Assembly (NCBI RefSeq): GCF_000003605.2
Contig: NW_003123907.1
Location: 605,912 to 650,261 of the forward strand
Source: Saccoglossus kowalevskii
Lineage: Eukaryota > Hemichordata > Enteropneusta > Harrimaniidae
Reading direction: 5' to 3'
Length of the DNA stretch: 44,350 nt
Below are positions 9,025 to 41,618 of this stretch, piece by piece. Below the pieces are notes generated by a model, which saw only the letters and a list, made by a program, of their open reading frames with translations, made no database searches and was not told where the DNA came from. The translations under genes were made by a program, and so were the position numbers. The stretch's first letter is position 1. Each line of letters begins with the position of its first letter.

Positions 9025-9957
9025 TTACAAATGTAAATGCTTGTTGCCAGAGTCTTTGTCGTCCCGTGGTGGCGTTGGGACAAATCTTACACTCTCTATG
9101 GCGACTCTTTGGTGTGGTCTTTTAAGTAGTCCCAAAGATGGCAAACATTTTTCAAGTACTGTCGGCTTCCCGATTACACCAAAATCACTACTTTTGTCAC
9201 GTGAAACCACAACTTTCGAACGTTTTCTTATTGCCGTTTTTACTTTTAGTACAGGTAAAAATGTTTGTTTTGTGGAAACTCTCGGAATAGTGTCAACAAT
9301 ATTGACAACTGGTTTTCTCCGACGCACAAAACGTTTCGATCGTTCGGCCATTGGAGGCGGGTGTGGCAAATGGTAGTACACCTTAGTGGGCGGGGGTTCA
9401 AGATTCGTTTTATTGATATGTTGAGAGGATCTCTGAGAATAACTAAAAATTGACACGGGGGATTTTGGGAGTTTTAATGCGGGAGCACCGATTACTATAA
9501 GGTCCCTGTATGGACTGGCAGTTAGCCGAGAATCTGATACAGAAACATTATCACTTGGAGAGTATTGCAATGTTAGTTCTTGAATATCCATATGGTGTTG
9601 AGATGAGAGAGATGACGCATTGCTCTCAGTTGATTGGCAACTTTTGATACTGCTTTGTGAAGTATACAATGCTTCGATATTGATTGATCCCAAACTTACG
9701 TCACTGTTATCGCTAAGGCGGTCTTCAAAGTCAGAATTACCTTCCAAGAATGTTAAGTGCTTGCGTATCATATCCCGCAGCTCGATCAGCGCCGGTAAAT
9801 GGTCTGCAACGTCGCCAACTAAAGAGGATACGGCCGGACGACTACCTAACTCGTTATCCGAGATTTCTTCAATCACGCGAATTAAATGAATAGCCTGGTC
9901 TTTGGGCAAATGATACATCCATCCTGTCTTGAGGTTTTCCCTTACGCACCCTTGAAG
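9025..9957 (-). CDS. Gene M exon 4, terminal exon of 310 codons plus stop
   Basis: The acceptor is CGATGTAG, phase 0 in. The exon opens with a helical segment (residues about 345-400, Leu, Ile and Glu rich), passes through a Ser-rich stretch with many Ser/Thr phosphorylation candidates, and ends in a basic region with RRRKP and Pro-rich motifs. It has no recognised domain and no similarity to the RBR part of gene P. Confidence 0.75.
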   Translation of the reverse strand, partial: LQGCVRENLKTGWMYHLPKDQAIHLIRVIEEISDNELGSRPAVSSLVGDVADHLPALIELRDMIRKHLTFLEGNSDFEDRLSDNSDVSLGSINIEALYTSQSSIKSCQSTESNASSLSSQHHMDIQELTLQYSPSDNVSVSDSRLTASPYRDLIVIGAPALKLPKSPVSIFSYSQRSSQHINKTNLEPPPTKVYYHLPHPPPMAERSKRFVRRRKPVVNIVDTIPRVSTKQTFLPVLKVKTAIRKRSKVVVSRDKSSDFGVIGKPTVLEKCLPSLGLLKRPHQRVAIESVRFVPTPPRDDKDSGNKHLHL

Positions 9958-12900
9958 CTACATCGGGGACATAAACATGAAGTGATTAGTCGTATCAGTA
10001 TATGAAACATGTCACAATGTGACAAAACTAAAGTTATGTCAGTTTCACTTTTGACTGAATTGGAAAGAATAGGTTTAATTCTGAGTATGTCTGTATGTCT
10101 TATCGTGAATGACCACGGACGTAAACATGCCAAGCAAATACGAGTCTCAAGATAATTGCGTTGCGTCCCTAATAAACTTGGCTATTAATAAACATGGTAA
10201 TCGAATACACAAATGGCGAACAGCACTGATATTCTGTTACAAGATAACTCTGCTCAAAAGATGGATAAAATGTAATCTCTGTTTACCCTGTATGGTGTGT
10301 CGTGCTCATGCTGATGTTTCGATCCAGTAATTACATCACATTTCAATAAGAGAATTACACTTCCTTCCCGTTCCTTGTGAAACCGCAAAGTTTTGTTATT
10401 ACCGCATCGATGGCATCTGAAAACGCTGCTCGACTGTAATGGACCCGGTGTTCTGCTGATTCCTGGTGAAAGCTGTGTGACAGAAAGGTCGTCGGGGTTA
10501 TTGAAGCATACGTGAATCTAATAGGATATTATGAGACATGATTTGACTACTATAACATTCCATTTTTCGTATAAAATTTGAAAGGATAAGATGCAAAGAT
10601 AATTTTGTTCCATGTATGTTTCGTTCTGATCGTTGATTAGACCTATTGAGGTGGTCTGAACCTTATATCAATAATATCTTCAGCCATGTCGTACTTTTTT
10701 TATTTATGCAAATGTGTTCGTTTTCAATAACACTGAGTACAATACGTGTTGTGATAAAATACATTTTGCCGAGCATTGGTGGCATAAATCGCTCTCTTGG
10801 CAACTGCCGTTGCTAGGATTGGTGATTTGCTGTTCTAGGAATGGAGTGATTACTGGTTTCTACCAAGAGGGATGACGTCATCCTCCTTTTCTTGTATGAC
10901 GTGACCCACCGCCTCTTCATATGACAATTTAATTTACCTGTGAGTAGTTCGTGGCATGTTTGCGTAATGATTTGGTATCTTTCTGTTGAACATGAATTTT
11001 CGTCATAAAAGTCAGCTTCTGTGGTTCGTCTTCGGCAGACCAGCCAAAATCTTCTTTCCAGAACCAGTCATCAGAGAATCCTTCATAGTATTCGGCAGCG
11101 TACCCGCCTTTCATCTCGTTTCTGTGGTAACCATTCCAGTAGTAATAATGCTTCTCTTTTTCTCCTTTACTCTTCTTTGCTTTCTTGGTTGACCCTCCCC
11201 CTGTTAATGAAACAAAATGAACTCCTTAGAATAATTATGACACTATCGGGGCACAATAACCATACTATGGAAATTACCATACATATTACTTTGATATGCG
11301 GAGCTCTTTATCAGTAAATAGAATTAGCAAACACGTTGAAATATAACTACTCCGTAAATCGCTGAGTTCAAATCTCCGTCTATCTCTTCGGAACTATTTA
11401 CTGGATTTATCCTATGTCCAATTGAGCTGACCTCAGATATGAACTGTCTATATCCCTTACAATAAACCGGACGCAGTGCGGCGTTTGTGTGTATGAACTT
11501 GACAAACAGTGATTGAATTTAGATATCATCTCTGTAAATTGGCAGCACAATACATGCAAATTGAATTGCAATAATATCGTTTCATGTACTTCAATATACT
11601 TTGATTTAATTGTGAATGAACTGCAGTTGATGAAATTATCTTAGTAGTACATACACATAATCACTGTGTATTTTGTCGGTCGAAACTGGAGTATTGCATT
11701 GCTCTGTTTTGAGAATATATTTACATACTGGCTAATTTGATAAGTACTTAATCATATGTTATCCGTAAGACTGTAGAGGTGACGAGTAATCAGTATATGC
11801 ACGGTATTCGCTGGAGATAACAAACAAACCCTGTAGTGTAATATCGGGGGATCTTTACTCACTTTTATATCTGGATTTATGATGTATTTCCTTGTACGCC
11901 GGGTATGTCGTCTTCTCCCGACCATAGAACACATCGTAAACAAGTTCTGCTACAACCTCACCACTAACAACTGAAAATATGTCATTTTTGTCTTCAACCG
12001 TCGACGGGCTTCCTTTCAAATTATTACATTGCTTTTTACGATTGCGTCGATGGTTCGGCTTCTTTCTGAGGTCATCTTTGAAAGAGTATTTACGTGATGC
12101 TGGTATTTTTATTGCTTTGTCTGTGTGGGTTTCGGAAATTTGTATGCAGTCTGCCTTCTCTCTTAACAACTCAGTGGTTTCGTGCTCGATCAAAGTAACT
12201 TTCACATCGTCCACTGAATGTAGATCGAAGTCTCTCACGCAAGAAGCGAACTCTCTGATTTTTTGCTGTGAGCAAATATATTGCTGTAATATCTCAGAGA
12301 GTAACCACCTTTTTTTCTTATTTAAACTGAATTTCAAATAGCCACCGTATTGTTGTTGATCACTCAAAAGTTGTGTATTACCTGGCAGGGGAAAAGACGT
12401 CAGTTAATATAATTGAATTAGGGTAATCTGAGATGGTAGTGATTATCTTGGGGCAGTAAAAATAGAAAAACTGAACACACACATGCAACTTTTAAGAGGC
12501 ATTAAAGTCAATACCATAACAACTTATGTTCCAAGCACAATGGGACATACCGAAGCCTCGTGAAAGCCTCAATAAGTAAACTTGTCAATTGGCATTTATT
12601 GTGTCAGTGTGGTACGTACAACTAATGGGTTGTATTGACAACTGCATGCACTGACTATACATCACAGATCTCTTCACCAACAAGACAATGAAGAGGTACG
12701 CTAACGACCACAGAAAGCATGTAATTAGGAATCACATTAGTTTGCCATCTGAATCAAATAAATGTGCAACAATTCGCGCACCATTAGTTACGCGTCTATC
12801 TTCGCACGCGTCTATATTTGTTGTGGAAACGAGTGTGAAATTCATGTTGCCATTGTCCCGTTGTCCCTTCTCTCAGTCTTGTAAAATGTATTGTTTGTAC

Positions 12901-13114
12901 CTGTGTGACATGCGAAAAGCTGGAGATTTCCATCCTCAACTGGATAACCATCTTGTAGATCTTGGATGAGACTCTTTTCCTGCCAGGCAGTGCAGTGACT
13001 TGACAGCTTCACGTACTTCGTCACAGAAAATAGACATCGACGGTGAACGGTTGGACAGCATCGTTTTAGCGTTCGGTTTGTCTCAATGCCAAATCTCGCG
13101 TTTCTTTGCACCAT
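9025..13114 (-). CDS. Gene M: four-exon gene for an unassigned 642-residue protein paralogous to the N-terminus of gene P
   Basis: Exons in transcription order are 13114-12901, 12381-11863, 11200-10938 and 9957-9025. They sum to 1929 bases (643 codons with stop). All three introns are GT-AG, with phases 1, 1 and 0. I do not recognise the family. Two blocks match gene P: residues 89-105 (FSLNKKKRWLLSEILQQ) and 255-273 (SKGEKEKHYYYWNGYHRNE). The rest is charged and low-complexity: a Lys/Arg-rich stretch near 185-205, an acidic aromatic region around 276-305 rich in Y, W, F, D and E, a Ser-rich region at about 410-450, and a basic Pro-containing C-terminus. I see no signal peptide, transmembrane segment or RING-type cysteines, so it is probably an intracellular scaffold-like protein (inference). 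The start at 13114 is the first ATG of the open first exon and aligns with the proposed start of gene P. Exons further upstream cannot be excluded. Confidence 0.7.
10870..10904. promoter_or_regulatory. Palindromic CRE plus a second near-CRE in a gene M intron
   Basis: GGATGACGTCATCC (10870-10883) is a perfect palindrome around the CREB/ATF octamer TGACGTCA. TGACGTGA follows at 10897-10904. A paired full site and near site in the third intron of gene M is compatible with a cAMP-responsive or bZIP element; function is inferred. Confidence 0.35.
10938..11200 (-). CDS. Gene M exon 3, carries the SKxEK / YxYWxG block
   Basis: The acceptor is TTAACAG and the donor CAG|GTAAAT; the exon is 263 bp, phase 1 in and phase 0 out. 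It begins with a Lys-rich segment, then SKGEKEKHYYYWNGYHRNE, then an unusually aromatic and acidic segment (several Y, W and F among D and E). The phase-1 intron precedes the shared block at the same place, to within one codon, as in gene P. Confidence 0.78.
11863..12381 (-). CDS. Gene M exon 2, carries the SLNKKKRW block
   Basis: The acceptor is CTGCCAG and the donor is the strong GTGAGT; the exon is 519 bp, phase 1 in and phase 1 out. The first 25 codons hold FSLNKKKRWLLSEILQQ. A later KYSFKDDLRKKPNHRRNRKK segment resembles KYAQARDFLAKPKPPRRQRQ of gene P. In P this region is split by one more phase-0 intron. Confidence 0.78.
12901..13114 (-). CDS. Gene M exon 1 (71 codons plus one base, phase 1 out)
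   Basis: This runs from the ATG at 13114 to a CAG|GTACAA donor. It ends ...YPVEDGNLQLF..., comparable to YLDDGMLQF at the end of the first exon of gene P. Both exons end in phase 1 and have nearly equal length (214 and 217 bp). A second frame within the exon is also open and similar to an alternative frame in P, so the N-terminal reading is the least certain part of the model. Confidence 0.55.
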
Positions 13115-13483
13115 AATACCAATATATATCTGAGAATATAAATGTATTTAAGCTGTCGTGTTATAAACATATATGTACCACAAAACTCATTGAACACTTA
13201 TTATATGTCAGTGTTAAAGACAGATGCGTTAGGCAGAGATGATATTTTCCTAGATACGTGTTATAATTCAAAAGATATTGACCACAGTCATCAACTCCGT
13301 AACATGTCTTCGCGTAACAATGATTTTAAGACCAATCGTAACGATTTCTAATTTAATATTTCACGATACAGTAAGATATATTTACAAATCTAACCAAATG
13401 ACATTGTTAAACTACCCCTACAAGTTTGATATGAGATTCTTTGCAGGCAATCGGCTAAGTATATGTCGTTTACTGTGAGCGCT
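13115..13483. other. Upstream flank of gene M, no feature recognised
   Basis: This should hold the promoter or an upstream exon of gene M. A possible 3' splice site (TTCTCAG) lies about 15 bases before its ATG. No TATA box or CpG-rich core stands out. Confidence 0.35.
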
Positions 13484-13645
13484 AAAAGCAACCCAACCAG
13501 AAATACTGCAATATATCTCACTGTTTGCAAAATAGCAATATTGATAGTTCAATAATATTTTGCAGCGATAAGCTAATATCAATATGGCCACTTCGTTAGT
13601 TAGACTGTGAGCTATTTTGCAATACAACTGGTTGGTTTGCCTTTT
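13484..13645. mobile_element. Fold-back (MITE-like) element with long imperfect terminal inverted repeats
   Basis: The left end AAAAGCAACCCAACCAG (from 13484) pairs with the right end CTGGTTGGTTTGCCTTTT (to 13645). Similarity of the arms continues inward for about 35 bases, including TGCAATAT..CTCAC against GTGAGCTATTTTGCA. No coding capacity is present. A non-autonomous DNA transposon or fold-back element is most likely; a hairpin RNA gene is an alternative. Confidence 0.5.
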
Positions 13646-16600
13646 CGTCCAAAGCAATGCTGAAATGATGAAACAGTGTTGATTCATATTTTTTTTTGGA
13701 ATGTATCATAATGTCTCCGCTCTTTGTTACATATACTGTTACGTTCGATTTTCTATTTTATGATGACTTGAAATGCACGTGTCTTTACTTTCACTGAGCG
13801 GCTGTCTGTTTCTTCAAACATCATTTCTAATTTCGAGATGGATAATATATTTAAGTAGATGTTATGACTAACGTTTGCCGCAGGGTTTTGTAAAAATGAC
13901 AAATTTAATTACAATAACATTATCTCACCACACGTTCATGTAAAATATGATTCGATAAATGGCTAAGTACGAAATATGCATAACGTGGCTCTTTCTGAGA
14001 TTACATCGGTGTGTATATATAATGTGAATTTCTGTGAAAAGTATGTGTATTTGTTAACGTCAATAACGTTTCTTATAAATTAATGAGAAAGTAATTCGCC
14101 GTCGGCGTTTATTAAGAACTCTGTGGGTGCTCTGTGAAAGCCGAACATAAGGTTTCTTCAGTGCCATGAATTAAAAATGAGGCCATATAGACCAATGTCG
14201 GTAAATTAAAAACTCTGTGATACGAACAAATTACCCCTTTGTATTCAGCAAATGGAAACGGGGGCAAATATTCAGGTCAGTGAATGAAATGATATTTTCA
14301 CCGGCGATGGTTTGTCAAGGAAATGGCGATTCGCTGTAATTAATACGCGTAGGTGAAGTGTATTAGAGGGGTCACCGACCAAATTATCCAATTATAATTT
14401 ATTGGATGGTCGCACAATGAATTAGTAGTCGATGTATGGTGGCGGTAATAACATGGAGCGACTGCAGTAAGCTTAACTAAGACGGCAATAAATTATTGAA
14501 GAGACTCACTACGCACCGGTCACTTTCTGTTCAGACAACGACTTCGTCGTCCGTCTGCTCCATTCTAAGTTCTATCCAGAACAAACGATCCACGCTGTCC
14601 ACAAGTCTTCGCTACATGCTGGTGTGGTTGTTATAGTCGGTGGTTTTATGGAATGGGAGTATGGTTTCAAACATACAATGTGTATTCTATGTGACGCCTT
14701 TATTTATTTACAAATGGTATCCATGACTGTGAATTGTCTTATCGACCTTTGGGTCAAACGGCCTGACGCCCTCAGTGGCGTGACACCCTAGTAAATTATC
14801 ACGTTCTTTTGCAAACCAAATGAAACTTTTTGGAACTACTTGTGTGAAAAAATTACACCGTGATTCGAGTAACAATTAGTTTGCTTGACGGGACATATTA
14901 TTTGATGATATCGCGCGTACATACATACATACAGACATACTCACAGCGAACATTCATTTCCCTTTAACAATGCTACATTAATCTCAATATCCCAATATAG
15001 AATACAATTACATTAATTGTAGTATATCCACTGGCAGATCCAGAAACTCGGTAAGGGGGCGCTCCTATTGACGTGGGCTGGATTTGTCAGTTGATTTGTC
15101 ATATTTTTTTGCTGGCTGAAGGGAGAGGGGCGCCTGGCGCGCCTCCTCCTAAATCCTCGCGTGATATCTAAAAAAAGTTTGGTGGGAAAATATTGGCCAA
15201 CATTTTGGCGGTAAAAGTTCCTAAATTTGTTTGGCGGGAAGTATTATTTATACTACATAATGAGAACTTGAATAACGCAGCATTTTACAACACTATATAA
15301 TAATTGAACAGTTTTGGAAACAGCTGGTTTGGTCAGTCTTAATTCTGTGCTCTTATTCCTTATTGTCTAGATGTTCTAGCAAAATGTTAAGTACATATAT
15401 GATAGTCATACCGAAATTGACCAATAGAGAAAAGAAAAATGTTTCCCTCATATATCGTAAGGGCAAGGTAGAAGCACGTGTTAAAACACATGGGTTTTCA
15501 ATCAAAACAGTTATAGTATTATCAGGGGGAAAATTCTCTTCTCTCGGGTTCTCCACACTTGTCAGGGGGGGGGGGAAACTCGTCTCGTCTCTCTATCTCG
15601 TCCCCTTGAGGTACGGGATCGGGAAAGTCACTTTAACTTTACAGTCAAATAAGGCACACACAACGAAATACGTTTCAACTCTCGTCTTAGTCGATCTTTT
15701 GGAGCACTCTATAAGACACAGCGCCCTGGGGAAAAGTCCCCAAGACTCTCACAAAGCTGAACCAAGACTCGCCCAAGACTGGACTGCCTCAAGGCTCGCC
15801 CCTGGACTGGACTCTCGACTGCCCAGGACTGCACTCTCTCTCTACTGCGTCTATCGTGCTGTGCTCCCCAAGACCAACTCAAACTCTCTTTATTCATTTT
15901 CACAACTCTAACCAATTACAAAGCAGTAAAAAGACTCTAGGGCGTAACCTTCAATCATAAAGCCAATCACACTAAGTACTGAATACGTCATATCTTTTGA
16001 TTAATCGTTCACTACATTAATAACTATGGATGTAAACTGTCAGAATGAGTAGTCTAAAAAGCGGCGGTTATCTGGTAATTAGTTCCAAATCACTGAGCTA
16101 AGTTCCGTCCAAAACTTCAAATAGACCCGAACGATGACAGACATAACACAGCAATTCAGCTAATAATCAACTAATTAAGTCGGTCAACAGATACGCGAAA
16201 ACAAATTCATGACAGTATTTTGAAAAAGCGTTCGTATTACGACAACGGATAAGGGCAACTACTTAGCATGTTCCTAATGAGTGGCGGCGGCAAGGGGGGA
16301 TGTTTGGGACGTTGCTCCTCCAAAAACAAGCTGAAAACCCTTGTGTCACCAAAGTTTGCCACTCAAAATGTAAGGGTGAGCATGCCCCCGGACCCCCTAG
16401 GTCGACGCAGATCTTACCCACCCATGCACAATTTCGTGCCGCCGCATCTGGTGATTGCTGCTATATTTCTGATTCAACTCAACTTTGCTTTGAAAATATT
16501 TTATATTTTGAAAATGAATTCCAAGTTTTAGTGTATTTTCAAAATAAATTTGCAATTCCAAGTTTACTTACAATACACGTATAATATGATCGAGTCATCA

Positions 16601-18630
16601 ATCCTCAAGCTAGTAATTTGGCTACACAGAAGGTACGTTCCCATGACCTAATAAATAAACTCTTTTTTCTCATAGCGGATATTTTATTGTCGGAGTCTTA
16701 ATCTCGAATGCCAGATAATATGATGATTGTCACACGCCTTTGTGAAATTGAATGTAATCTTAACTACATGTCGTGATTATAAAAACTCAAAAAACGTTCC
16801 AATCAAGTCATTGACAAAAAGTGTTATGCAGATTTTTTTAAACACCAAAAGGACAAAATGTTTCATTTTAACTTGAAAATTAGGTGTTTTTTTAATCACA
16901 ACAATTGATGTGATTTTATAATGGGGAAAAGATATTTTAAAACAATTGGATGTAGGGTGTGTCGGAATGCTGTAGGTGCTGGAACAATTCAGTAATGTTG
17001 TTATACGTAGTTATTTGCCCCGTGTCTCACGAACAATACAATAACTATCGATAATGTTAATTTGTATGCCCGAAGTCTAAGATTACGTGCGTTCTACTCG
17101 CCAATTAATTATGTATACATACATTATTACATCGTCCCCGAAAGACGTGACTTCGAGTTGCATTATTTTTTTTCAATACTGTAAAGAAATCCCCACTGGG
17201 GGGTCTCGTTTAGGCTACGTTCCACCGATGCTGATATATCATAATCCACTCAAAACAAGTGTTGGTCTAGGATATCAGTTGTAATCAGTTGTTTGTGTAA
17301 TTAAAGCAGAAGGGTCATCACCTGCGCACGCGCGGGAATTGAGTCCCAAGCGACGATAACAACACACGCTAAAAACGCAAAGGCTCATGGGTAGATGCTT
17401 GTTTGTTAGCAATGACACGCTATGGCCATCTGACGCATGCCCAGGTGACGACTCCCCCGCTTTAATATAACATAATGATTGAGTTTCACATTTCAGTCAG
17501 ATTTTCGACAAATTGTGTTTGTCATATACCTCGTGATCAGCTACAATACAACAACACTCTGATGCGAAGGAAACAAATGGCGTACCAATGTCATGATATA
17601 GCATCTGCAAATCATTATTAAGATTGCGATAATAGACAGCCCGTGGCTATTCAAGATTTCAGGTTCATTGGATTCTGGGATTGCTTCTTTTTCAATTAGA
17701 TGATATTACGTGGATATGTAAACTTTCATGCGTATACGTAGTGTTTACGTCAGGGAACGGATAAAAATGCATTCACATACGTTTAATTAGAAAATGTCAA
17801 GAAACATATGAACTGCACGTCTCCCGATTTGTGATATGCTGGACGGTCATAAAACTGCAGAAAGTAGCATCCGACTACATCCTAGTCATAGTGAGCATCA
17901 CGTCCATTGCCTTTTTTTCTAGATAAAAAAAATTCCTACGCATACACGTATTCCCATAATGCAATGCGCCAAGATGACACACGCCGCCAATCAAAAATAT
18001 TCAATCCCTGGTCATTAGACATACGAAAGAGTGATTGTAGTTCTAATTCTACACAACAAGGTCCACCAAACAATCGGTGATTAAAGTATCAAATCTGATA
18101 GCGTAAGAATATTTATTACCCAGTATTACCTAATGTGTATATAATAAAGAATAACCGCTCAGAGTAAGCCACTCAACAAACGTGATGTAACTCGCCTACT
18201 ACACTATATACCCGGATGCAGTGTGGAGGAATGTGTATCATTCACTCGTCTTCAGGACACGCATTCTATTCCGTGGGGCCTGCTCTATATTCTATTAGTT
18301 ACTTAACTATGCCCGTCACACGTCTCAGTCGGATTTAGCATGTTTTAAACTAAATCCCTTATATTATCAAGTGGGAAAGCTATTTCACGGTGTACAGTCC
18401 AGTAACACATCGAAGCGATAATCTAATTGTTATATTAGTATGGCTTGTAAATAAGCTTTGTCAATCACGAATTCACACAAAAGTGTTATAATACAGATTT
18501 GCGAAAATCGCTAAAAAAAATGGCGTATTGCACTCTGTTGTTGATATGAGTAAAGATGGTAGTCACTGTCGGGTAGCGCTTTCAAATTCCTTGTTTTTTT
18601 GCGCATCGCTCGGGATTTATATTAAACGCA
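13646..18630. other. Intergenic with GC-rich repeat-like islands, no gene recognised
   Basis: The region is mostly AT-rich and non-coding. Two islands stand out by composition. One is at 15020-15150, with a GGGGGCGCTCC run and tandem GCGCC/GGCGCGCC words. The other is at 16268-16450, GC-rich and flanked by AT-rich DNA. Between them, 15545-15870 holds a 12-base G run and a stretch rich in repeated GGACTG and AAGACT words. These look like remnants of mobile DNA, but no transposase, RT or LTR boundary can be shown. An 18-base word at 17377-17394 recurs at 43729-43746. Confidence 0.45.
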
Positions 18631-19620
18631 ACGCGACGCGACGCATAAGACTCATATCAAACACGACGCGTCGCATGGGACTCGTATCGAAAGTAACGCG
18701 TCCTATGGGTTCTATATGGAACACAACGCGTCCTATGGGTGCCATATCGAACACAACGCATCCTATGGGTGCCATATCGAACACAACGCGTCCTATGGGT
18801 GCCATATCGAACACAACGCGTCCCATGGGTGCCATATCGAACACAACGCATCCTATGGATGCCATATCGAACACAACGCGTTCTACGGGGGCCATATCGA
18901 ATACAACGCGTCCTATATGTGCCATATCGAAAACAACGCGTCCTATGGGTGCCATATCGAACACAACGCGTCCTATGGGTGCCATATCGAACACAACACG
19001 TCCTGTGGGTTCTGTATCGAACACAACGCGTCATATGGGTGCTACATCGAACACAACGCGATATATGGGTGCCATATCGAACACAACGCATCCTATGGGT
19101 GCCATATCAAACACAACGCGTCCTATGTATGCCATATCTAACGCAACGCGTCCTATGGGTGCCATGTCGAACACAACGCGTCCTATGGGTGCCATATCGA
19201 ACACAACGCGTCCTATGGATGCCATATCGAATACAACGCGTCCTATGGGAGCCATATCGAACACAACGCGTCCTATGGATGCCATATCGAACACAACGCG
19301 TCCTATGGGTGCCATATCGAAAACAACGCGTGATATGGGTGCCATATCGAAAACAACGCGTCCTATGGGTGCCATATCGAACACAACGCGTCCTATGGGT
19401 GCCACATCGAACACAACACGTCCTATGGGTGCCATATCAAACACAACGCGTTCTACGGGGGCCATATCGAAAACAACGCGTCCTATGGGTGCCATGTCGA
19501 ACACAACGCGTCCTATGGGTGCCATATCGAACACAACACGTCCTGTGGGTTTTGTATCGAACACAACGCGTCATATGGGTGCTACATCGAACACAACGCG
19601 ATATACGGGTCCCATATCAG
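18631..19620. repeat. Minisatellite, exact 30-bp register, about 33 copies
   Basis: The consensus half-units are ACACAACGCGTCCTATGGGT and GCCATATCGA. From 18661 on, all 32 units keep an exact 30-base spacing with no indel. Units hold up to three CpGs (ACGCGT and TCGA), and most variants are CpG to CA or TG changes. Because 30 is divisible by 3, long open frames run in all six frames. One reads a decapeptide repeat NTTRPMGAIS from the first ATG at 18546 to a stop at 19646. A variant block near 18871-19080 recurs near 19441-19620, giving a higher-order repeat of about 540-570 bp. It is best read as non-coding satellite DNA. Confidence 0.9.
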
Positions 19621-22600
19621 AGACAAACAAATATCTGATAATATAGAGGTTCGGACCGATCTGAAGATTATATGTCATCCTTTGTTTATTGTTTTTCTTT
19701 TAATGGGATAGTATCGTTAGGATGCCGAAAATGAGTAACCTGACAATGTTTTAAGAACAGAATCTGGAATCGCACTGAGATTCAAACACGGCCAGGGTAT
19801 GTGTCTATATGTGGGAATGGTGTCAGTTCGGAACGCCACAACGCTGTACAAGATGAAGAGCCGACCACTTGTGGATGTATGTTGAGAACCAACGAATTTA
19901 GGAATCAGCGACAACCAGTGTATGTAGATGAAGTGTATTAACAATTTAATAGTTCAAGTGTAACCTCCAAATGTATTGCGTACAACTAATATCTCCATTA
20001 TAGATTTTCAATATTGTATGCAACGGTTGGAAATTTAAGTTCATAAAGTTCTGACTTCACCTCCACTAAAATAAGAAGTGAACTCCACAATAAGCCATCA
20101 ACATTAATCAGTCTGATTGTAATCGAAATGTTTTATTCAGTGGGGCGTACTGTGAGATTGATCATGACCTCACTGCTCGCGCAGGCAATTCAAGAATAAT
20201 AACATAATTATATTCTTTACACTTGTCGAGAATGTGTATACTTCACAGGTGCAATATAATATTCAGTTGTCAAATGTCAGACCATTCAGGAAAGCGTACA
20301 TCATTATCATCCCCACAACTAAGATATTCATCCTGTGTTAATGAACACATGACCTATTTACATATTATTTTCGTTCCAGTGCATCATTGACGTGAACACG
20401 TACAAACTATGTATACATTTTACATGGGTGTGAGAGAGATCTCCCCGTGGATCATATGATTGGATTTTACAGTAAATGATTTATAAATCTGAATATCAAG
20501 TGATCCTCAGGGTTTGTTTTTTTTCGAGTATGTTTTCGCGAATGTGATATTTAGAATTGTTTCACGTTACCCGCGCGGTAGTAAAATGTCATGTTTTAAT
20601 ATATTAATGACATTAATATTAATATTTATTTGCGAAGTTTCAGAGCATTGGTGTGTGATATCACTAATATAATAACACATTTTAACATCATAATCATATA
20701 TTAATAACTTCAACATTGTTAATATTACAACAAACACATCTACTATAATATAAAAAACTACTACGCGCGGCATACTTAATATAATACTTGCGTTTAAACT
20801 AGATATACTGTGTGGCAAAACAAACCACTCTTTTTTTAATATTCAGTACTCGATTCTAAGTATTGATGAACCTTCTTGATCAGGGTCTATTTTAATTAGT
20901 TTAAAGCTAGAGTAAGACAGTGATTAAGACGAGGGAAATTTCAATTGAGTTACATTCAAGTTTACAATTCATAGTGAACTGTAATCCAAATCACATTTCC
21001 CATTAGCAGGGAACTAATAGAGTGAGGAGGCCACAGCGGAGACAGAGCATTGTGGAGGGGATGTCGGTTTCCCACTGTTTGTAACTTTATTGTACCATGT
21101 ACAATGTATGATTCCATTTCTACCTTATAAATAGTACAACCCCACTTTAAATATAACGAGTTTTTTTTAAATGTTTATATTTCATGAAAGTGATGGGTCA
21201 CGTTTCTATTCCAAATTAATTCCAAAATGGGTACAATTACGATAACTGAAACAAATGAACAATCATTTTGTGGTTGGACAAAAAAAAAAGATTGTGAAAT
21301 GGTTGAAGTTACCTATTCATAATACAAGCCGGGGATGTGTGCCCGGTATAACGTATTCGCCACACATCAAGGAATAACATGTGGCGTTATTAGAAAGATA
21401 TGTATTCTCACAATTCATTGTATACAACATCTGGTATTATATTCTCAATATCTCCAATGAAAAATGAACGTGAAAAAATGACAAACAATACCTGCGTCGA
21501 ACACTCAAAACACTTATTTTCACTCAAAATACTACAACAGTGTAGTGTATAATAACAATGTCGGCTGTAACCATGGTAACCAAACATTGGTTTTCTCCCG
21601 GTCTTCCGAGATTTAACACCAGTGTGAAACATTTCGTTCAACCACGCAAGATTCCGTGGCAAGGTTTGAACAGCTGCCAGATGAGTTTTGTATTCTTTTG
21701 CGAATGGATCGATATCGATAAGTAGATCTGTTTTCAATAGGTTTGTACTCGTACGCCAGTGCATATGGCGTGGTTACCTGTAAAGTAGCTATACCCTTAA
21801 CTGTGTCAAACTTTGATAAGTTAAACATACTACCGTGATCAAAGTAATAAGAAATGGTGATCATAGAGGGATATTGCTTCGTGAGATAACGTTGAACTAA
21901 GACTGTACACGATATTTAAGGGTCGCTAATACCATATTAACCCGCGCAGTTCCCCCCCCCAAAGGCACAGGCCTTTACAGTTTATTATTATCCTACATCG
22001 TGGAGAATTTGTCATGCATCATGTTGCTGCTATAGCAACAACGTTCAGGTCGTTTCTCGTAGCTCGTACGAGAAAATAACAAACATAACGATATATCAAG
22101 TTATTCAGAAACAAATCATTACAGACAGATATTTCATGCAAGTTGAATGCAGGGAGTTTTGTTGCTGTTGCGCAACTCGATATCTGATATAATTATGCTC
22201 CGCTTATACGTAAATTTGAAGCGCATTGCTACGTATCAAGTAACATGGCGTAATCGGGGGCCATGTGCTGCTTTGGTATTATCATTTCCGATACTGAACT
22301 GAGACAACACTAATAATGAGCAATATTTTAGCTATACTTACTCGGAATTGAGACTGCGAAAGGTCAAATAAGTGTAAATTATGCACAAATTAAAATGTTG
22401 TTGGATATATTTCTTCGTTGGCAAGAAATTTGACTCAGACGTTGGGTTAACTTTTTCGTCAGAAACGACATTTAATTTGTTTGTGGTTATATTTTGGCTA
22501 GGCAATTTTGTACAAACTTGACAGGTACTACCTACACCTGCAGATAGGTGGAAACATTTGAAAAAAATCTTATTCTACCGTTGCCGTGACAACGTCCAAA

Positions 22601-23229: not shown

Positions 23230-24026
23230 TCCCGTGTGCTGTGAGTATTTGAGACACAATAAAAAATAATTCTAAATTACCTGTATCTGAGATATTGATG
23301 GAAAAGCTGAAAACTAATTATGCAAATCAGAAAATTAATATGAACAGATTTGAGTGTAAAACTAATAAGGTCTGTGCAATGTAACATACCATCTACATGT
23401 ATGTACCAAGTTTCATTGAAATACGATTAGAAAAAAAATTATGAATTATTATGCTAATTGGAGAATTAACATGAACAGATTTTAACTTGAAACTAATTAG
23501 ATTTGTACATTGTCCTAAAGAATCTTTGTAGCAAGTTACATTGAAATGAAATAATTAGTACTTTAGATATCAGTGTGAAAGCTTACAATTGGTTAATCAT
23601 GCAAATTATGTAATTAATATGTACAGATTTCAACCCAAAGTTAATCAGGTCTGTCTATTCTACTAGAACATCTATGTACAAAGTTTCATTGAAATGTGAA
23701 GATTAGTGCTTGGGATATTAGTGTGAAAGTTGAAAATTGATTAATTATGCAAATTATGTGATTAATATGCATAAATATATACCAAAAACTAGTTGGGTCT
23801 CTGCATAATCCTAGATTCATTGAAATGTTATGATTAGTACTCGAGATATCAGTGGAAAAGCTTAAAATTCAATTAATATGCATGGATTTCTACCAAAACC
23901 TAATCAAATCTGCGCATTGGCCCAGAACATATATGCACCAACTTTCATCAAAAGACAATGTATGGTTCTTGAGATATCAGTGGAACGGATAGATATACTC
24001 ACACACACACACATACAGACACACTA
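23230..24026. repeat. Decayed tandem repeat, unit about 110-150 bp, about 5 copies, ending in a (CA)n tract
   Basis: Landmark words recur in order: ATGCAAATTA, AATTAATATG, A(A/C)AGATTT, AATCAGGTCTG, GTACCAAGTTTCATTGAAAT and GAGATATCAGTG. The A(A/C)AGATTT landmark occurs near 23343, 23474 and 23623, with decayed relatives near 23770 and 23880. Most copies carry an octamer-like ATGCAAAT. The array ends in (CA)n and CAGACACAC at 23999-24026, a common terminus of such repeats in invertebrate genomes. Confidence 0.7.
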
Positions 24027-25967
24027 ACTGCAAAGACTTCTATTGTGTGCTTCGCCCACGGGAGTCAAACATGACCCATTTCAGTCTTTTCAGCCAGAAA
24101 ATCAGCCCCTTTTAGACTTGCGCTGAGTGAGTGTTTTTTTTTTAAATCCCCACTTATCAGTTTTCACAGACATGAGATTTTTTAACGAAATATCTTTGCC
24201 CCTCGAAATTTAGAACGCCCATGCGCATCTCCTAACTAGCTATGTGCCCTACTCAGAACAGCTATGTCAACATATTCCGTAGTTTTGAAGCATTTTGTAG
24301 ATATAGAATGACTTCGTTCCGTTATCATTGAGAGTGCTGATGGGCCGCCGTGACGGTTGACATGCAATCTATTTCTCGAAAAGTTGATACAGCTAAGGCA
24401 CAGATGTACAACACTGAGATAAGTCACGAAGCGACAGTTAGAGTCCATAAACAATTATGCAGCACCAGCTAAATTAAGTTGACACGACACGACGAATCAG
24501 ATAAAAGTAATCCGGTATATGAGAACTTCGCTAATGAACTGTCAAAACTAAACGGATAACCAACGGTTTAAACTGCGAAATAAAAAACAAATAAAGAAAG
24601 AATTGAATCAATCAGGATAATTAGATACCTCCCGGTGGAAATTAGTGACACGTTCGTAAACAAGCAAAATAAACGAGGCAAGCTTCACATCGTGCAATTT
24701 ATATGCCAATATTGGGGTATAATTTAAGATGTATTAAGTATTGTGGTGTTTAATGAAGCACTTAATTTAATCTAACATACATATATATGGTCACGTGACA
24801 ATACGTCAATTGTGGTTTGGATGGTACTCAGAAATCTATTTGCAGATTAATTCTCTCATGACAATTGCAAACAGTATGCGTTGATGAGTGACACAGTTTA
24901 TTCCCCGTGAATATCATATATGTTAGCATGACAGAAAATAATTTGTCAAGACGCCTCAATTAAGAGCGAGAAGTGCAAACCGCGAGAGTGGACTCATTTG
25001 ATGGGATGATGAGATAATATCGCGTCCGCGTCATTGCAGTTCACCCAACAAACCGTTTATATATAGTGGTTCACTGAAAGTAGTTGTTTCAACACCGTGT
25101 ACATTGACAAGGTTGACTGAAAGGTGTCAGCTTCATCTGATCCTAGTCTTAACAAGATAAAATTCCCGAGAATTGAAAGCTATCCCCATGTGTGTTTAAA
25201 TCTCTGTATTTCAAGACGAAACATAACCTCGAATTTCAATAATAAAGAGAGCGATCAATGGTCTAGGTGAAGTAGTTTAAAGCTTCGGTCGCACTGATCA
25301 TGTTAAGCGTACCACTTTTAAAGAAAGCGCTGAAATGACTGTCCTTTAGAAACACGGTCCGTATAACTTGGATAATCAGGCAAATATATCAGTGCGACTT
25401 GTTATAAATGTCACATATATGTGTTTTTAGTCGTGTAGGAGTTTGAATTATGTCGAAAAGGCATTTTTTTCGAAAGATACATTTGAATATGAGCTTTGAT
25501 TTCTGCTTAATTACTTCGTGGGATCATGGCGAATATACCACAAACTTTGCACGAAAGCAGTATGGTGCTCGTATCGACCGGAAAGAGTGTTAAAAAAAGA
25601 GTATATAGCACCGACGTTGATTGACCTGTCTGTTCGCGTGTTAGTAAATAAATTATCACTTAAACTGGGAAAATCGCAGTCACAATGTCTTTGGACAACC
25701 GTGTGCGTCTAGATTCAGTTCAGATTGCCTTTGTGCTTAGCTAAAACGCTGTATATTATACAAATAATGACACAAGTGCCGAGATCAACATTCTCATTTG
25801 CCTGCACTGGTAGCTACTGCATTAATTTAAAACAATCCACAATCCAGTTGAATCTATCAATGTACCACTGTATCAAATCATATGAAAGTCTACAATATGA
25901 CTATTATTTTACTCATTTGCTCTTAAATAGATAGCTGTCGACTATGTATATACTGGTACTATATATG
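24027..25967. other. Intergenic, no gene recognised
   Basis: Only short open frames are present. No motif, RNA gene or transposon coding sequence stands out. Confidence 0.5.
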
Positions 25968-26167
25968 GACAACATCGGACCTGCAGTGGACAACATCGGG
26001 CCTGCAGTGGACAACATCGGGCCTGCAGTGAACAACATCGGACCTGCAGTGGACAACATCGGGCCTGCAGTGGACAACATCGGGCCTGCAGTGGACAACA
26101 TCGGGCCTGCAGTGGACAACATTAGGCCTGCAGTGGACAACATCGGGCCTGCAGTGGACAACATCGG
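25968..26167. repeat. Minisatellite, 21-bp unit, 9.5 copies
   Basis: The unit GACAACATCGGGCCTGCAGTG is repeated without indels; a few copies differ at one or two bases. The unit includes a CTGCAG palindrome. The plus strand would read a DNIGPAV heptapeptide repeat, but there is no surrounding gene, so it is treated as satellite DNA. Confidence 0.9.
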
Positions 26168-27469
26168 TGTTTTGGCCAGCGCGTTGCTTTAGATCGTCTG
26201 TCTTTAGACGACAGCGACATATAAAACATTTACATGTGTGGTAAGGAATATTTTTGAAGACGGGTAAGTCAATAACTCCAAATAATCCCATTCGAGGCAT
26301 TATACATTTTTCATGAATCAGCGGTCGGCAGTGGACATGAGGTGTAATAATGTGTTTATATTGCCTTCAGTGAACTTAATAATGTGTCGCACAGCATCTC
26401 GCAAGATTTAATCATATACGTCATCCCACGTAACATCGTGCATTTTGAGAATTGAAGAGAGTGAAACTATCTCACGTGGATAAATAGCATTAATTACCAC
26501 GAATAAATTAAAAGTCGAATTCCGAGGTGAAAAGTTGAAACTAACGAGAGGAAACTGCGCAGCTATACGCAGGTATGTTTGCGTGATGACGCAGTACAAA
26601 AAAAAAAAAAAAAACATGCCACAAGGTTTCACAGTACTGAATACAAATGATGTTATTAACTTTAGGTTGTTCAGCACCGTGGGGGTTTACTGACACGTCG
26701 TGTCGTTAAAGATTTAAACACGCCATACTTGATATCAATACATCGGTAAGGTAGCTGAGACTCGATCGGTGCAAAATATCATACATTCCCCTGCAACAAT
26801 CACATGTACAAGTCTCCACATAACCACCATCGTGAAATATTAATCATCACAGATACACATATTTTACGAGCACGGGAAAGTGGGGTATTTTCATCGGAAA
26901 GATTGTGTAAAGCGAGAAAATGCAGATGAGTTTTTAAGAAGTGTTATTTTGATTTAAAACACAGTCACGCAAAACGCACATCTCGGTTATTTAAATATAG
27001 TAGGAGAGAGTTTTAAAGTGCTTAGAAATAGAGATCTATTATACACGTGTGAAGTGCATCTAGTGCTGTCTGTTAATGCAGTCGTTACAAAGTTCTCGAA
27101 AGGATCTAACAACAACAAATATGCATACAACCTGGTGCCAGGTGATAGCTAATGGATTTTCTATCCGCTGACAATTACTTTATCTTTCGTTTTATGTTTG
27201 TTGTATCGGTTTTCAGAAATCGGCAAAGGCTGTTGCAATATTCCACAAATAATCTTACTAAGGCTCTATACTCCATTAAAGCCTCTGACCGTGACGGTGA
27301 CTAAATAACGTGTCCGCCATTTCAGAACCATTGTATATTCTTCTACATAGTTCATTTCATCTTTTCGAGTAATCACAGCTCATGGTGTATTTCTCAGTAT
27401 GTCAATAGTTTCGTTTGAGTAGAAAATAGTAAAATATTACCAGTTTATTTGAAGTTGTTTATTATGTTC
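26168..27469. other. Intergenic, no gene recognised
   Basis: A poly-A tract occurs near 26597-26614. No supported coding or RNA feature is seen. Confidence 0.5.
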
Positions 27470-27800
27470 CAGGTAATGCCGCTACGTCATAATATAATGG
27501 AAAGTGTACACTATATAATGCAATTACGTCATTATAAAAGAAACTTCCCCGTTATATAATGAAGCTACGTCGTAATATAACGAGAACTCGTCACTACATG
27601 ATGAAGTTACGCCATATTATCATGAATATTGTTAATGAATAAGTACACTGTATAATGCAATTACGTCACAATATAATGAAGTTTCACCATAATATAATTA
27701 AAACTCATTATAACAAAATGGTGTTAGTCTATAATTCAATGAATATTTGCCATTGTATAATGAATTTACGTCATAATAAATGAATAATGTACATAATATA
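27470..27800. repeat. Degenerate tandem repeat, unit about 42 bp, with a TACGTCA word in many units
   Basis: Seven loosely related units follow the pattern (C/T)TACGTCATAATATAATG, a spacer, then ACTATATAATG(A/C)A. TACGTCA occurs near 27482, 27520, 27660 and 27767. Decayed versions (TACGTCG, TACGCCA, TTCACCA) fill the register between. The unit length drifts, so the array is old. Confidence 0.6.
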
Positions 27801-29973
27801 AAGGATACTACCACATAAGGCTCTTCCATACAAGTGTGCTACGATGCGTCTATTTTATAACAACTTCCTATTAACAATAAAGTCCCACGAGGATTACGGG
27901 GAAAGTTTTAATATATATTCTAGAATGAATCCTATATTCAGATGACACAGCATATATTGAAGTTATCAATGTTATTGTGAAGTTAACACTGTCATTGGTG
28001 TATAAATTGAGCTAATGGAGGTATGTCCACTGGGACTAGTTATATGCGTGTCCATGAGATACGGACAGATTAAATGCAATACAGAAAATAATAGGAGTGT
28101 AAACTTCTACGATCTTCATGGATTTAGAGTAATTACTGATTGTTAAATCCAAGTTCACGGATCACATCCTACAGCGCCGTGCAGCTTCGGTTTCAAGGTT
28201 TCAACATAAAGATGATTACTCAGTTCACTTCTCCTGAGACTAAAGCTAAGCGTCAGCCCCGCTGTCAACGTAATTGAATTTCCATTTCGCCTAAGGTATT
28301 CATTCGTATGAGACATTTAAAACAAGGCCACTTCGCAAGTTCACTTCGATACAATACATTTTGTCCAGTCTTGAACCCATATTTAAAGGTGAGCAATTAT
28401 GAGGCATCAGACGCGTTATTTATACATCTCTCTTCTATCACAGTCCTTCTATAGAGTGAATGTGCTTCGATATATACCAAACCCGAGATAGCACCCAGAT
28501 GAAGGTCAAGTTAACTTTCATGGCATATTTTATTAACATTATGTCATTGAGGATGATTAATTAGTGATGAAATATATAATAATATAATGATGTGTAAAAT
28601 CTCTGCATAATCCGGAGAAGGAAAGCTTTACAGAATGTATAAAAAGATGTCGAACCCAGTCTCTTTTTTCGTAAATCGAGTTCTTTCTAACAGCGCCTCC
28701 AAGTGGTGGAATCAGTATACACCGTAGGTGGCGTAGTCTGTCATGGACAAATTCAGTCCGGCGATTATTTTGTTTACAATATAAATAAGCAAAAAAGTGA
28801 AGTAATTCTTAACTACGTCGTCATTTTTCACTTTCACTAATTTTCATTTATTTTTGGTAAAACAACAACAATTAATAAATGGAGGGCGGAAGGGGGAGAG
28901 TCTTTTCAAAAGTTTTAGTTTTCTCTAACAATAATAATAATAATAATAGAAAATATAAACAAATAAGAATAAACTTTTCTTTGATGCAATCAATTGTACT
29001 GTATATTGCTGAACGTCACAACTGCGAATGATGGTCACGTGACTTTATTTATATATTTTTCTAATAGTTTTCAAAAAAACAACAACAATAAAACCAGTTG
29101 CCTTCTTTAAAAATTGCTTTGAAAATCTATCATTCTACACCAAAAAATGGACACTAACAGTCAACACGAAGAAATAATAAGTAATAATATATTTTTCTGA
29201 GGAAAAAAGGGAAACATTTAAAATCTTAAATTATTGAGAATAGTTTCGAGTGTAAATGAAAAAATCAATGGAAGTCCTGAAGGTTTTGCGAATAGCGCAT
29301 TGTGGTAAGGGGACTCAGGCGAGTGTGCAAATAACTGTAGAGGTACTAGTGTCGTACCCAAAGGAAATCACATTAGTTCATTACAGATAGTCCAGCTTTA
29401 TTCATCTGAAGTGACGCCTCGCTGTTCCCTTCTCTTCTTAGCTCTTACAAAATCTTACAAACTCCCAAATAAACGGCATGACAGAGTAGTAAACATGCGT
29501 TCATTCATTGGCACGAACACGTGATTACAAAGGATGGAATTATATAGTAGCATGTCTTGTAATTAAAATGTAATTAAAGACAGTAAGTTTATTTGACATT
29601 ACGAACTTTACTAATCTAAAATAAACTTAAATTTATAATGATAATGAAAATTATAACACAGGTGTACTCATTGTACTGGCTAAACTCCTAAAAAATAATA
29701 TGCAAGCAACACCTCGCAATTTGAGTTCCCCTCATGTCAAGTTCTGGATGGACAATCGTTTCATTTATTTATTTACAAGACTTAAAACTTTTTAATAACA
29801 GCTATTGGAACTGCTTTATATATCACTTTCGTTAGTGGATATTTGCTTGTCTAGTGTGATTGAATTTTATTCTCCTTGATTTTAAGTTTCTTGGGGTGTT
29901 GATTAGTCATTTTCGGTTAAAGGTCGGTGGTCGTCGCGTCATGCGTGCTCGAGATATGGGTCTCATATAAACA
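27801..29973. other. Intergenic upstream of gene P, no gene recognised
   Basis: The region contains an (AAT)n microsatellite at 28929-28948 and two CTCF-like words in opposite orientation near 28694-28740 (GCGCCTCCAAGTGGTGG and ACCGTAGGTGGCGT), each with mismatches to the consensus. The rest is AT-rich with no coding signal. Confidence 0.45.
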
Positions 29974-29984
29974 AAGATGGCGAC
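29974..29984 (+). promoter_or_regulatory. YY1-like initiator motif upstream of gene P
   Basis: AAGATGGCGAC matches the core AAGATGGCGGC of YY1 sites, which usually sit at or just downstream of the transcription start. The flanking bases are CpG-richer than the surroundings. A gene P promoter about 0.5-0.9 kb upstream of the coding start is inferred. Confidence 0.35.
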
Positions 29985-30237
29985 TTTGACTGTTGTGTAC
30001 ACCAACGAGTAGAAATTGAACAGTTATCAAGCTTTAATTAGGCTATTTGTTGGTGATTTTAATACATCAAATAAGTTGCCGGTAATTAGTGCAAGTGACA
30101 CCCAAGTCAAAACTCGTACTCGTGATTTCATTAGAATTGGATTGTGGGAAAATTATTTATATCAACACAAATGTCGCAAAGGTCAATTGAATGTATTTCG
30201 GTCATGCTGTTTTCTTGTCCTTCAATTAAAGGGCGGG

Positions 30238-30287
30238 NNNNNNNNNNNNNNNNNNNNNNNNNNNNNNNNNNNNNNNNNNNNNNNNNN
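30238..30287. other. Assembly gap (50 N)
   Basis: Fifty Ns in a row mark an unresolved join; the round number suggests the true length is unknown. The flanks are GGGCGGG on the left and CCCGC on the right. Confidence 0.99.
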
Positions 30288-30509
30288 CCCGCTCATAGGG
30301 AGTGCGTACTGTTGATCATAGTTCCTGGGCTCCCTGTGGTTTCAACACACTGTATGTTCGGTCAGTTGCAAAATATATCAATAGAGGGCGATGTGTTTCG
30401 AATCCCTGTTATCCTGCCTGTTATTCACCTCCTTACAGTATTTACGCTACACATCGTGTTTTAAAAGTGGTTTAGCCCATCTATATTTAGATCAAATAGG
30501 TCATTCAAA

Positions 30510-30680
30510 ATGGTGGCGTTCAGCAAATGTTGCACAACTTTCGGCAAGCTCAGCAAAACGATCAAAACAGACCGTACAAATGAAGAATTCACGTGTACGT
30601 CACCTCAGTACAGACAGCGATACCGTTGTTGGAGGCAAGGGTTCGAAAAAAGAAAACCATATCGCCGAAAATTATCAATA
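30510..30680 (+). other. Candidate upstream exon of gene P (57 codons, frame conflict with the main model)
   Basis: An ATG in a good context (CAAAATGG) opens a 57-codon frame that ends exactly at a consensus donor (ATA|GTAAGT) in phase 0. It joins in frame at either acceptor (30808 or 30826) to a second open frame in the next exon, which reads protein-like residues (TRWYENKAQESIGLPM...) and then stops at 30974-30976. The main gene P frame is different. This may be a 5'-UTR exon with an upstream ORF, an alternative short product, or the true N-terminus disrupted by a one-base assembly error. Confidence 0.35.
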
Positions 30681-30831
30681 GTAAGTACTTAATTTGTGCA
30701 CATTCCGTTGAAGGACTGTGATTTGTGGAACCTTGAGATCCCAATGATCGTCCGTGATCTTATCTTTTTTTATGACTGCATAAACTTATTGTCAATTTTG
30801 TAATTTAGCAACATCAGTTATTACAGACAAG

Positions 30832-31048
30832 ATGGTACGAAAACAAAGCGCAGGAAAGCATTGGATTACCAATGGACGGACAGTCAGGAACGATCATAAT
30901 AGTATCCGCTATAAAAGAGATTATGCAGCTTGTGAAGAGGTGTCTAAATGTATCACCAGGAGGAACGGTAATATAGGGCGAGAAGAAGAAGAAGAAATCG
31001 AGTCTGAGTTCCACAATTATTTAGATGACGGAATGTTACAGTTTACAA
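30832..31048 (+). CDS. Gene P exon 1 (72 codons plus one base, phase 1 out)
   Basis: This is open from the ATG at 30832 to a strong GTGAGT donor. An acidic run of five Glu is followed by YLDDGMLQF, matching the end of gene M exon 1. Acceptor-like sites at 30808 and 30826 suggest the exon begins upstream of the ATG. Another frame is open over 30827-30973. Confidence 0.55.
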
Positions 31049-34000
31049 GTGAGTTGAACAAGTACCCAATGTTAGAACTTGGGCAATACTTCACCTTTAC
31101 CGGCAACTTATGTCGTAATAAAAACGATTTCACACAGCAATTATCTCTTACTAGATTATTTGCAAAAAAAAAAACAAAAACAAAAAAAAAACATGCTAAT
31201 GCTGACCACAACATTTAAGGACTGGAAACTCTTAGTTTGATTCCAAACCAGCTATGAATGCTGACGAAAAATTATGTTTTGTCATCTAATTGTTGTCACT
31301 TTTGTGAGACATGGTGTTGTGCACTGTGCTTGTTGATTTGCTGCTTGGGTTCAACTGTCATTGAAATTTGTCAATATTTATAAAAATAAAGAGAATGCAA
31401 TTGTTATAAAGAACATATATAAAGAAAGGCATGGTTAATCAATTAGTTGTTATATATAATCTGTTTTCTCTTGTAGAATGTTTTCGAGATGATCCAGGTG
31501 TGAAATATAGTTTAAATAAAAGAAAGAGATGGGAACTCCCTGAAATGCTAAGACAGAGTGTTTTAGATCGAGAACTACATAAAGACCTAGAATTTCGAGT
31601 TATCATGGAAGAAAAGCATGATGGATATGGACTGTTCTCATCAAAAGGAGGCAGTAGGGTAAATATCTGCTATGTGTATCTATAATTGTGATTGGATTAA
31701 ATAGGAAGCTGTTAATCCCGGGATGGAATCATGAGATAACATTGTTTGTATGTTTTTTTACACTATAGTCTGTTTTCCATTGTAATTTAATCACGTTAGA
31801 TGGATTGAATTAAGTGAATGTTCTTTCTTGTCCAATGCAGCCTAATTGTATTAAAGTGTGCGATGGCAAGTCTGATAATCCTGTAAAGAAACCAAAGAAA
31901 CACAAATATGCTCAAGCTAGAGACTTCTTGGCAAAGCCTAAGCCTCCAAGACGACAACGCCAACAACGTGAGGAGTTTGATAATACTGAATTGGAAGATG
32001 AAATTACTCTGAAATACATCATCAATCACCCAGTGCCACCCAATCAGCATCCAGTATGCAGAGAAACATCTAAATCATTTGGATGGAAGAAAGGTTTGTC
32101 AGTTATTGCTTTTTGAGAAAAAGATTTTATTACAAACAACAACTCTAATGTGCAGAAATTTTATTTTCTACACAGGATTGTTTTTTACTTATTTTCAAAA
32201 TTGATGCACTTTCAATAACCTGACCTTGCTTGAGTTTGCATGCCCAACTAGAACTTGACTATTTTAAGGAGTTCTTCCTGTGTCTAGTTGGACATGCTGC
32301 TGGACCAAAATGGCAATTTGTACAATAGTTCCCAATAACAGTATGGGGCTGCATCACAGCAGCATTGTGTTGACAATAATTTGTTATAAGATTAATTTTT
32401 ACAAATATTATAAAATAAAAAGTTATTCCAACATACCTACTCTATTTCTTCTTACATTACCAAAAACACACTTATTTCTTATCTATTTAATTGAGCTTAT
32501 ACCAACATTTATTATCATCTGTGACCATAACGACAAAAACACCATATGTACAATTAAAGCAGAACAGTAGCTGTGTTATGTTGTTTGATATTGGTCCTAA
32601 GTGGCATTACATGTACCTCTATATTGTTTGTTTACTGTAAAATGACTAATTTTCACTGGATTTACCATTTCAGGCATATTCACTGGGTTTAAATTTCACG
32701 GTTTTATCATCTAGATAATGTGTTCTATGCTAAAAATTACATATTCACTGGGTTTTAATTTAGCGCATTTTCCAGTGAGCCAAATAAGCAAAATTAAAAC
32801 CCAGTGAATAATTAATCCTTTTACAGTAAATAAAATTTGAATGTGTGCTACATGGTGACTGTTACAATTTGAAACATCCCCAGCTGCAAGTCTCCACAGA
32901 TAGCCAGAATAAAAGTGATGTGTCAGGAGAGTAGAACCACAGATAGTAGGTAAACAATGGTAGTAATGGAGTATAATTTGTATGTTCCTGTTTTTACTTT
33001 TACAGACTTTGCTTATTGTCACAAATCAGCATGCAAATCAAAGAGCGAAAAAGTTCACAACTATATGTATTGGCATGGACATAGCATTAATGAATTGAAG
33101 ACCATGCGTAAGGAGCACATTGATGACCACATAGATTATGACGTTTATATAGATACTAAAAATTCCTGCCAGAAACCAGACATGCCGAGCATCAGCAGTA
33201 TTATGCATAATGCCCTACAAAGAGATGAACTTGTGAATAACCCTGCAATTACATTACAGCATAGAAAACTGATTGAACATTTACCAAACAATACTAATAT
33301 GGCAACATCTACTCCCATAAAAATGCACCACAAAGGATCTACTGTATTTTTTGAAGAGAGAGAAGTTGAAACAAATATCCAAGAAAGTAAAGATGAAGTT
33401 CAAGATCTAAGCATTATTGTGCCACCAAAACAAAGTGATGCTGCCATTAACATTGATAAACCTAGTATTGTTCTAAAGGCTCACTCAGAAAGTCTCAACC
33501 TGAAAGAAGTAATTAATGGATTTGGTGATAGTTACTTAGAAGGATTCTCAGTTCCTCATAAATTCAGCGTTGATATCACTTCATCTGTTATTGCTTCTAT
33601 GTATGACAGAGGGGAGACTAAGTTGGCAAAACAGTTACAGGATTTTGGAGATCCATTATATACAGTGTTTGATGAAACAGGAATGAGAGATGATGACGAT
33701 GACATCAAGAGAATAAGGTACATATAAAAATGTTTTTATTGTTGTTAATAATATCATTTACTTTGTGTTTTAAAAAAATATAATTTTATATTCTAATTAT
33801 TCTTGTATTATGTTTTTGTTTATACAGGGTTTCTTTATTTGGTTGTAAACATTCTTTCCACGATCATTTACAAACTATGTTGGATAGTTATTACAAGGTC
33901 AATCATGTGTATACTGTTGCTGAAATAATTGAGATGATGTTGAATGTGATTGAGTCATCACCAGTACAAAGGTAGGATATTTTCAATTTATGTACAATTT

Positions 34001-41572: not shown

Positions 41573-41618
41573 GTGCGGAACTTCACTTTTCAGAGCACGA
41601 GTTGTCAGACTGGCAAGC

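Follow-up and report, generated by a model that had tools for sequence, protein, structure and literature searches.

Two neighbouring genes in Saccoglossus kowalevskii, on opposite strands, were reported in a preliminary description to share an N-terminal module that is fused to an RBR ubiquitin ligase in only one of them. Is this module shared by common descent, and what might a ligase-bearing and a ligase-free copy do side by side? The genes, here called M and P, lie in a window of 44,350 bp, the whole stretch of DNA that was analysed (C1648:605912–650261). The genome comprises 572 Mb in 4,830 contigs. Coordinates without a contig name are window positions.

Locus and gene models

Models of M and P were built by hand from consensus splice sites in the genomic sequence. 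M is a predicted minus-strand gene of four exons encoding 642 residues before the stop codon, with GT-AG introns of phases 1, 1, and 0. AATAAA signals are found downstream of M at 8953 and 8943. P is a predicted plus-strand gene of 13 exons, from 30832 to 39361, encoding 985 residues with no internal stop. All 12 P introns are GT-AG, and one has a weak donor (gtttgt, after 32093). The start codons of M and P are 17.7 kb apart. In-frame genomic stops lie 11 codons (M) and 16 codons (P) upstream of the chosen ATG. Because the upstream stop of P precedes a potential splice acceptor near 30808, P may have an earlier start and an additional spliced exon upstream. The exons are as follows.

12901–13114, minus strand: M exon 1, coding part 214 nt, ending in phase 1 (open frame, upstream in-frame stop, donor CACAG/gtacaa)
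11863–12381, minus strand: M exon 2, phase 1 to phase 1, with block 1 FSLNKKKRWLLSEILQQ (model and alignment)
10938–11200, minus strand: M exon 3, with block 2 SKGEKEKHYYYWNGYHRNE (model and alignment)
9025–9957, minus strand: M exon 4, 310-residue Ser/Pro-rich tail (model; no Pfam match or second genome copy)
30832–31048, plus strand: P exon 1, coding part 217 nt from the chosen ATG, ending in phase 1 (model)
31477–31658, plus strand: P exon 2, with block 1 YSLNKRKRWELPEMLRQ (model and alignment)
31841–32093, plus strand: P exon 3, mid-module, aligning with the second half of M exon 2; weak donor
33006–33717, plus strand: P exon 4, with block 2 SKSEKVHNYMYWHGHSINE and a linker of ~200 residues (model and alignment)
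33828–34585, plus strand: P exons 5 and 6 (33828–33971, 34429–34585), between linker and RING1 (model)
34921–35109, plus strand: P exon 7, RING1 with 7/8 zinc ligands (Pfam, model, ARIH1 alignment)
35349–35646, plus strand: P exon 8, final RING1 ligand and IBR (Pfam IBR 1.8e-12, ARIH1 alignment)
35996–36207, plus strand: P exon 9, Rcat (RING2) with catalytic Cys749 and Gln751 replacing the usual His (Pfam, ARIH1 alignment)
36973–39361, plus strand: P exons 10–13 (36973–37110, 37429–37599, 38087–38206, 39197–39361; model), C-terminal region with a Ser-rich stretch; stop at 39361

The M tail is 12.9% Ser and 7.7% Pro. M gave no match in Pfam (E ≤ 5) or PDB (E ≤ 10), and its tail matched only itself in the genome (E ≤ 1). 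The predicted M model contains no RBR, as the preliminary description had stated.

Other features were seen in the window. A tandem duplication (34111–34477, period 186, ~2 copies) lies in P intron 5 and the start of exon 6; its upstream copy at 34241–34297 reads SIIVNYGPVKRIPSNLADT, resembling exon 6 SIMVNYGTVRKIPSNLASS, and is a partial duplicate exon of P. P intron 3 includes an imperfect palindrome (32731–32823, ~76% self-complementary over 95 columns). A minisatellite between M and P (18653–19618) has 32 copies of a 30-bp unit and is open in several frames on both strands, and another (25966–26167) has 9.6 copies of a 21-bp unit with 95% matches. A long open frame at 4755–6383 encodes a rhodopsin-class GPCR (Pfam 7tm_1, 4.7e-58); among the best 60 of 544 matches, muscarinic and histamine H3 receptors of solved structure score highest. 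An open frame at 41526–41831 with MADKEGRVSNGGAAAPARKKRQGKRKKRGKTDPG may represent the first exon of another gene, located downstream of P.

On the 17,037-base mitochondrial contig of this genome (C4830; loci L030 and L031), COX1 is encoded on the strand opposite to that of most other genes that could be recognised, an arrangement described for S. kowalevskii mitochondrial DNA. The contig has a tRNA with anticodon TTT (Lys) and AAA at Lys positions. AGA is rare, with six codons in seven open frames and none in COX1. The COX1 positions carrying ATA are presumably mostly Ile. ATA as an Ile codon marks echinoderms and hemichordates (PMC2697986). Together these mitochondrial features point to an acorn worm resembling Saccoglossus as the most likely source.

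The shared N-terminal module

Residues 58–275 of M are collinear with residues 63–249 of P, with a Smith-Waterman score of 166. P was shuffled 5,000 times, 2,500 of them preserving local composition, and no shuffle scored above 80. For the N-terminal regions the maxima were 75 (2,000 full shuffles) and 76 (2,000 local-composition shuffles); for the full proteins they were 75 and 80 (500 of each kind). The presence of a shared module in two opposite-strand genes is thereby confirmed. Both modules are basic (K+R content 17.6% in M and 20.2% in P), and the objection that their likeness is no better than that of random basic segments is answered by the same shuffles. Two-sequence blastp of M and P gave E 5e-13, 58.9 bits, and 59/224 identical columns (26%).

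The two conserved blocks are in frame in coherent predicted models with GT-AG introns. The reported identities (11/17 for block 1, 10/19 for block 2) and spacing of block starts (166 residues in M, 146 in P) hold on the translated models, and both blocks are more conserved than the shared stretch as a whole. When parts of M were compared with parts of P, three of the 20 pairs stood out: M exon 2 with P exon 2 (score 70), M exon 2 with P exon 3 (65), and M exon 3 with P exon 4 (75), each score being reached by 0/1,000 shuffles. The tails of M and P show no similarity that stands out in this comparison.

In M and P alike, both blocks are preceded by a phase-1 intron. On the alignment (A1) these introns lie at column 78 in M and column 74 in P for block 1, and at columns 256 and 257, respectively, for block 2. 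P has a further phase-0 intron after residue 133 (column 159), which has no counterpart in M. Given the chosen start codons, the first exons are nearly equal in coding length, as had been noted, and end in the same phase. Homology of the first exons rests on length, phase, and position, since exon 1 of M has no similarity to exon 1 of P (score 22, equalled in 457/1,000 shuffles).

Alignment score, collinearity, and two same-phase introns at matching places strongly support the reading of M and P as old paralogues that share the module by common descent, in line with the original proposal. Judged from their sequences, the pair is a sound paralogy. The duplication appears to be old, because the same codon is used at only 34/73 identical M–P residues and a blastn self-comparison of the window (E ≤ 1e-5) lists no M–P match. 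A local inverted duplication had been proposed. Opposite strands, the 17.7 kb between the start codons, and the lack of a convincing third copy in searches of limited sensitivity agree with this; the inversion may have come with the duplication itself.

The statement that the module matches no nameable family holds within Pfam-A and PDB. The M module had no match in Pfam-A, the P module had a single match below cut-off (Neural_ProG_Cyt, 15.6 bits; cut-off 29.4), and a two-sequence module profile found nothing in PDB at E ≤ 10. "Undescribed" here means without a match above cut-off in Pfam-A and without a match in PDB. No description of the pair or the module was found in the part of the literature covered. 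A profile of the alignment gave 57 pattern matches on viral contigs and 368 on prokaryote genome contigs, with none confirmed in either set; no such relatives are expected of an animal gene.

Copies elsewhere in the genome were sought by pattern and by protein search. The block-1 pattern occurs at two places, exactly M and P. Its reversed control occurs at three, so the count alone proves nothing, and the relevant point is that no third copy appears. The block-2 pattern occurs in M, in P, and at C2718:169165, and its reversed control nowhere. The C2718 site was taken for a chance match: a stop codon lies three residues upstream in frame, and no block 1 was seen in the 1.5 kb upstream, a stretch that may fall short given that the P blocks are ~1.5 kb apart. 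The zero control count gives the chance reading no help. The P protein searched against the whole genome gave 14 matches from 15 candidates: 13 were the exons of P itself, and the other was M exon 2 (E 0.019). M exon 2 matched only itself at E ≤ 0.001 and did not recover P. At a limited sensitivity, at which the P query missed an ARIH1-like locus and distant copies may escape, the module seems to form a two-copy family restricted to this locus.

The RBR ligase of gene P

The fusion of P to an RBR ubiquitin ligase is borne out, with RING1, IBR, and Rcat present in that order by Pfam and phmmer. This part is encoded at 34921–36207, past the end of the interval originally noted (9025..33717). Pfam IBR matched whole P over two stretches (3.1e-14). 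On the Rcat exon, IBR_1 scored 31 bits (cut-off 27), compared with 26.3 on whole P. The RING1 exon reached the cut-off of zf-C3HC4 (23.2; cut-off 21) and missed that of zf-RING_2 (27; cut-off 27.3). Phmmer of P against PDB matched 35 distinct sequences at E ≤ 0.01, including ARIH1 (best match, 1.2e-27 over P 558–787), ARIH2 (1.8e-21), and the RBR part of Cullin-9 (1.1e-16 over P 510–772). P and ARIH1 are identical at 75/221 aligned residues. At the positions that we take to be the ARIH1 zinc ligands, 24/24 residues of P are the expected Cys or His.

Cys749 of P aligns with the catalytic cysteine of ARIH1 (HHARI), an Ariadne-subfamily RBR E3, and like it stands in a GGC motif. Two residues on, P has Gln751 instead of the usual active-site His. 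The corresponding HHARI residues are Cys357 and nearby His359, and substitution of the equivalent His in parkin, H433, abolished polyubiquitin formation (PMC3772753). Gln751 could impair catalysis by P. In RBRs the Cys is essential, conservation of the remaining triad residues is incomplete and their importance varies between RBRs, and HOIL-1 has Trp at the His position (PMC9834252). On these grounds Gln751 is compatible with RBR membership, and P is predicted to be a complete RBR ubiquitin ligase, Ariadne-like in sequence and probably active.

P was not filed as an Ariadne member because the Ariadne and UBA-like domains, which ARIH1 carries (PMC7904520), are not demonstrable in P. A PDB search with P 773–985 (E ≤ 10) gave two unrelated matches (E 0.53 and 1.1) and no ARIH chain, and Pfam gave a single unrelated sub-threshold match. 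The alignment of this region with ARIH1 scored 43 (reached in 1,582/2,000 shuffles), 48 without the Ser-rich stretch (1,091/2,000), and 33 end to end (596/1,000). The region before RING1 of P had no PDB match at E ≤ 10. Compared with what we take to be the ARIH1 UBA-like region, P scored 32 against its first 60 residues (reached by 728/2,000 shuffles) and 57 against a longer segment that extends into the first RING residues (29/2,000). Both domains are plausible by eye and unsupported by most shuffle tests.

P further differs from ARIH1 in a 450-residue N-terminal part that is unmatched to it. P is very probably not the ARIH1 of this genome, since a separate fragment (L020) is 73% identical to ARIH1 over 59 residues. 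ANKIB1 is an Ariadne-like RBR with ankyrin repeats and a long N-terminal part ahead of the RBR. P resembles it in the long N-terminal part, but no ankyrin model is among the Pfam matches of P. Another locus (L021) has short Ariadne-like RBR stretches and is presumably the ANKIB1 candidate. Unlike Cullin-9, P has no cullin model among its Pfam matches. Across the genome, the IBR family gave eight matches on six contigs at E ≤ 0.1, two of them within P; the other loci were judged by short stretches.

Origin and possible roles of the pair

We lean slightly towards a reading in which M and P are old paralogues, the module docks or targets the ligase of P, and M binds the same class of partner without ubiquitylation. 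Duplication of the 5′ part of one gene would have placed the three-exon module (~190–220 aligned residues) in both. In P, where the 200-residue linker joins it to the complete and probably active ligase, the module may act in docking or targeting, directing the ligase towards a partner or a substrate. With the module and an unrelated 310-residue tail, M may bind such partners without ubiquitylating them and act as a ligase-free partner or competitor of P. The architecture makes it plausible that M competes with or assists P, as the preliminary description had suggested in casting M as a possible partner, decoy, or antagonist. The 26% identity over the shared stretch counts against this, as functions may have diverged long ago.

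Homologous genes with different partners or pathways and no cross-regulation are a possible, if somewhat doubtful, alternative. The low identity, the unrelated C-terminal parts, and the small share of identical codons, as expected after a long time, all suit it. M and P are still neighbours, however, and conservation in their blocks clearly exceeds that of the shared stretch overall. We consider functional independence almost as likely as competition with or assistance of P by M. M may also have begun as a complete copy of the ligase gene P and degenerated, losing the linker, RBR, and C-terminal exons and acquiring a new terminal exon. This possibility bears on origin and is compatible with either functional reading. 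It would explain why sequence sharing ends after block 2 and why the introns preceding both blocks match; but tblastn with P as query against the window shows no trace of an RBR exon near M, and the opposite direction, an older module to which the ligase was joined in P, fits equally well. We regard loss of the ligase from M as rather unlikely. Chance or composition in lysine-rich segments, with no common descent, is hardly credible. The modules are rich in K and R, but the shuffles refute this explanation unless the gene models are wrong, and the intron phases and places match.

A broader reading extends the preferred one, of paralogues with a shared docking module. The module may be a previously undescribed domain, present in hemichordates or across deuterostomes in general and retained as a divergent gene pair in which a ligase is accompanied by its own ligase-free competitor or adaptor; this we consider improbable. 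Should the pair prove to be conserved, an RBR ligase's targeting part would occur in two neighbouring genes, one with the catalytic part and one lacking it, and the role of the targeting part would be directly testable.
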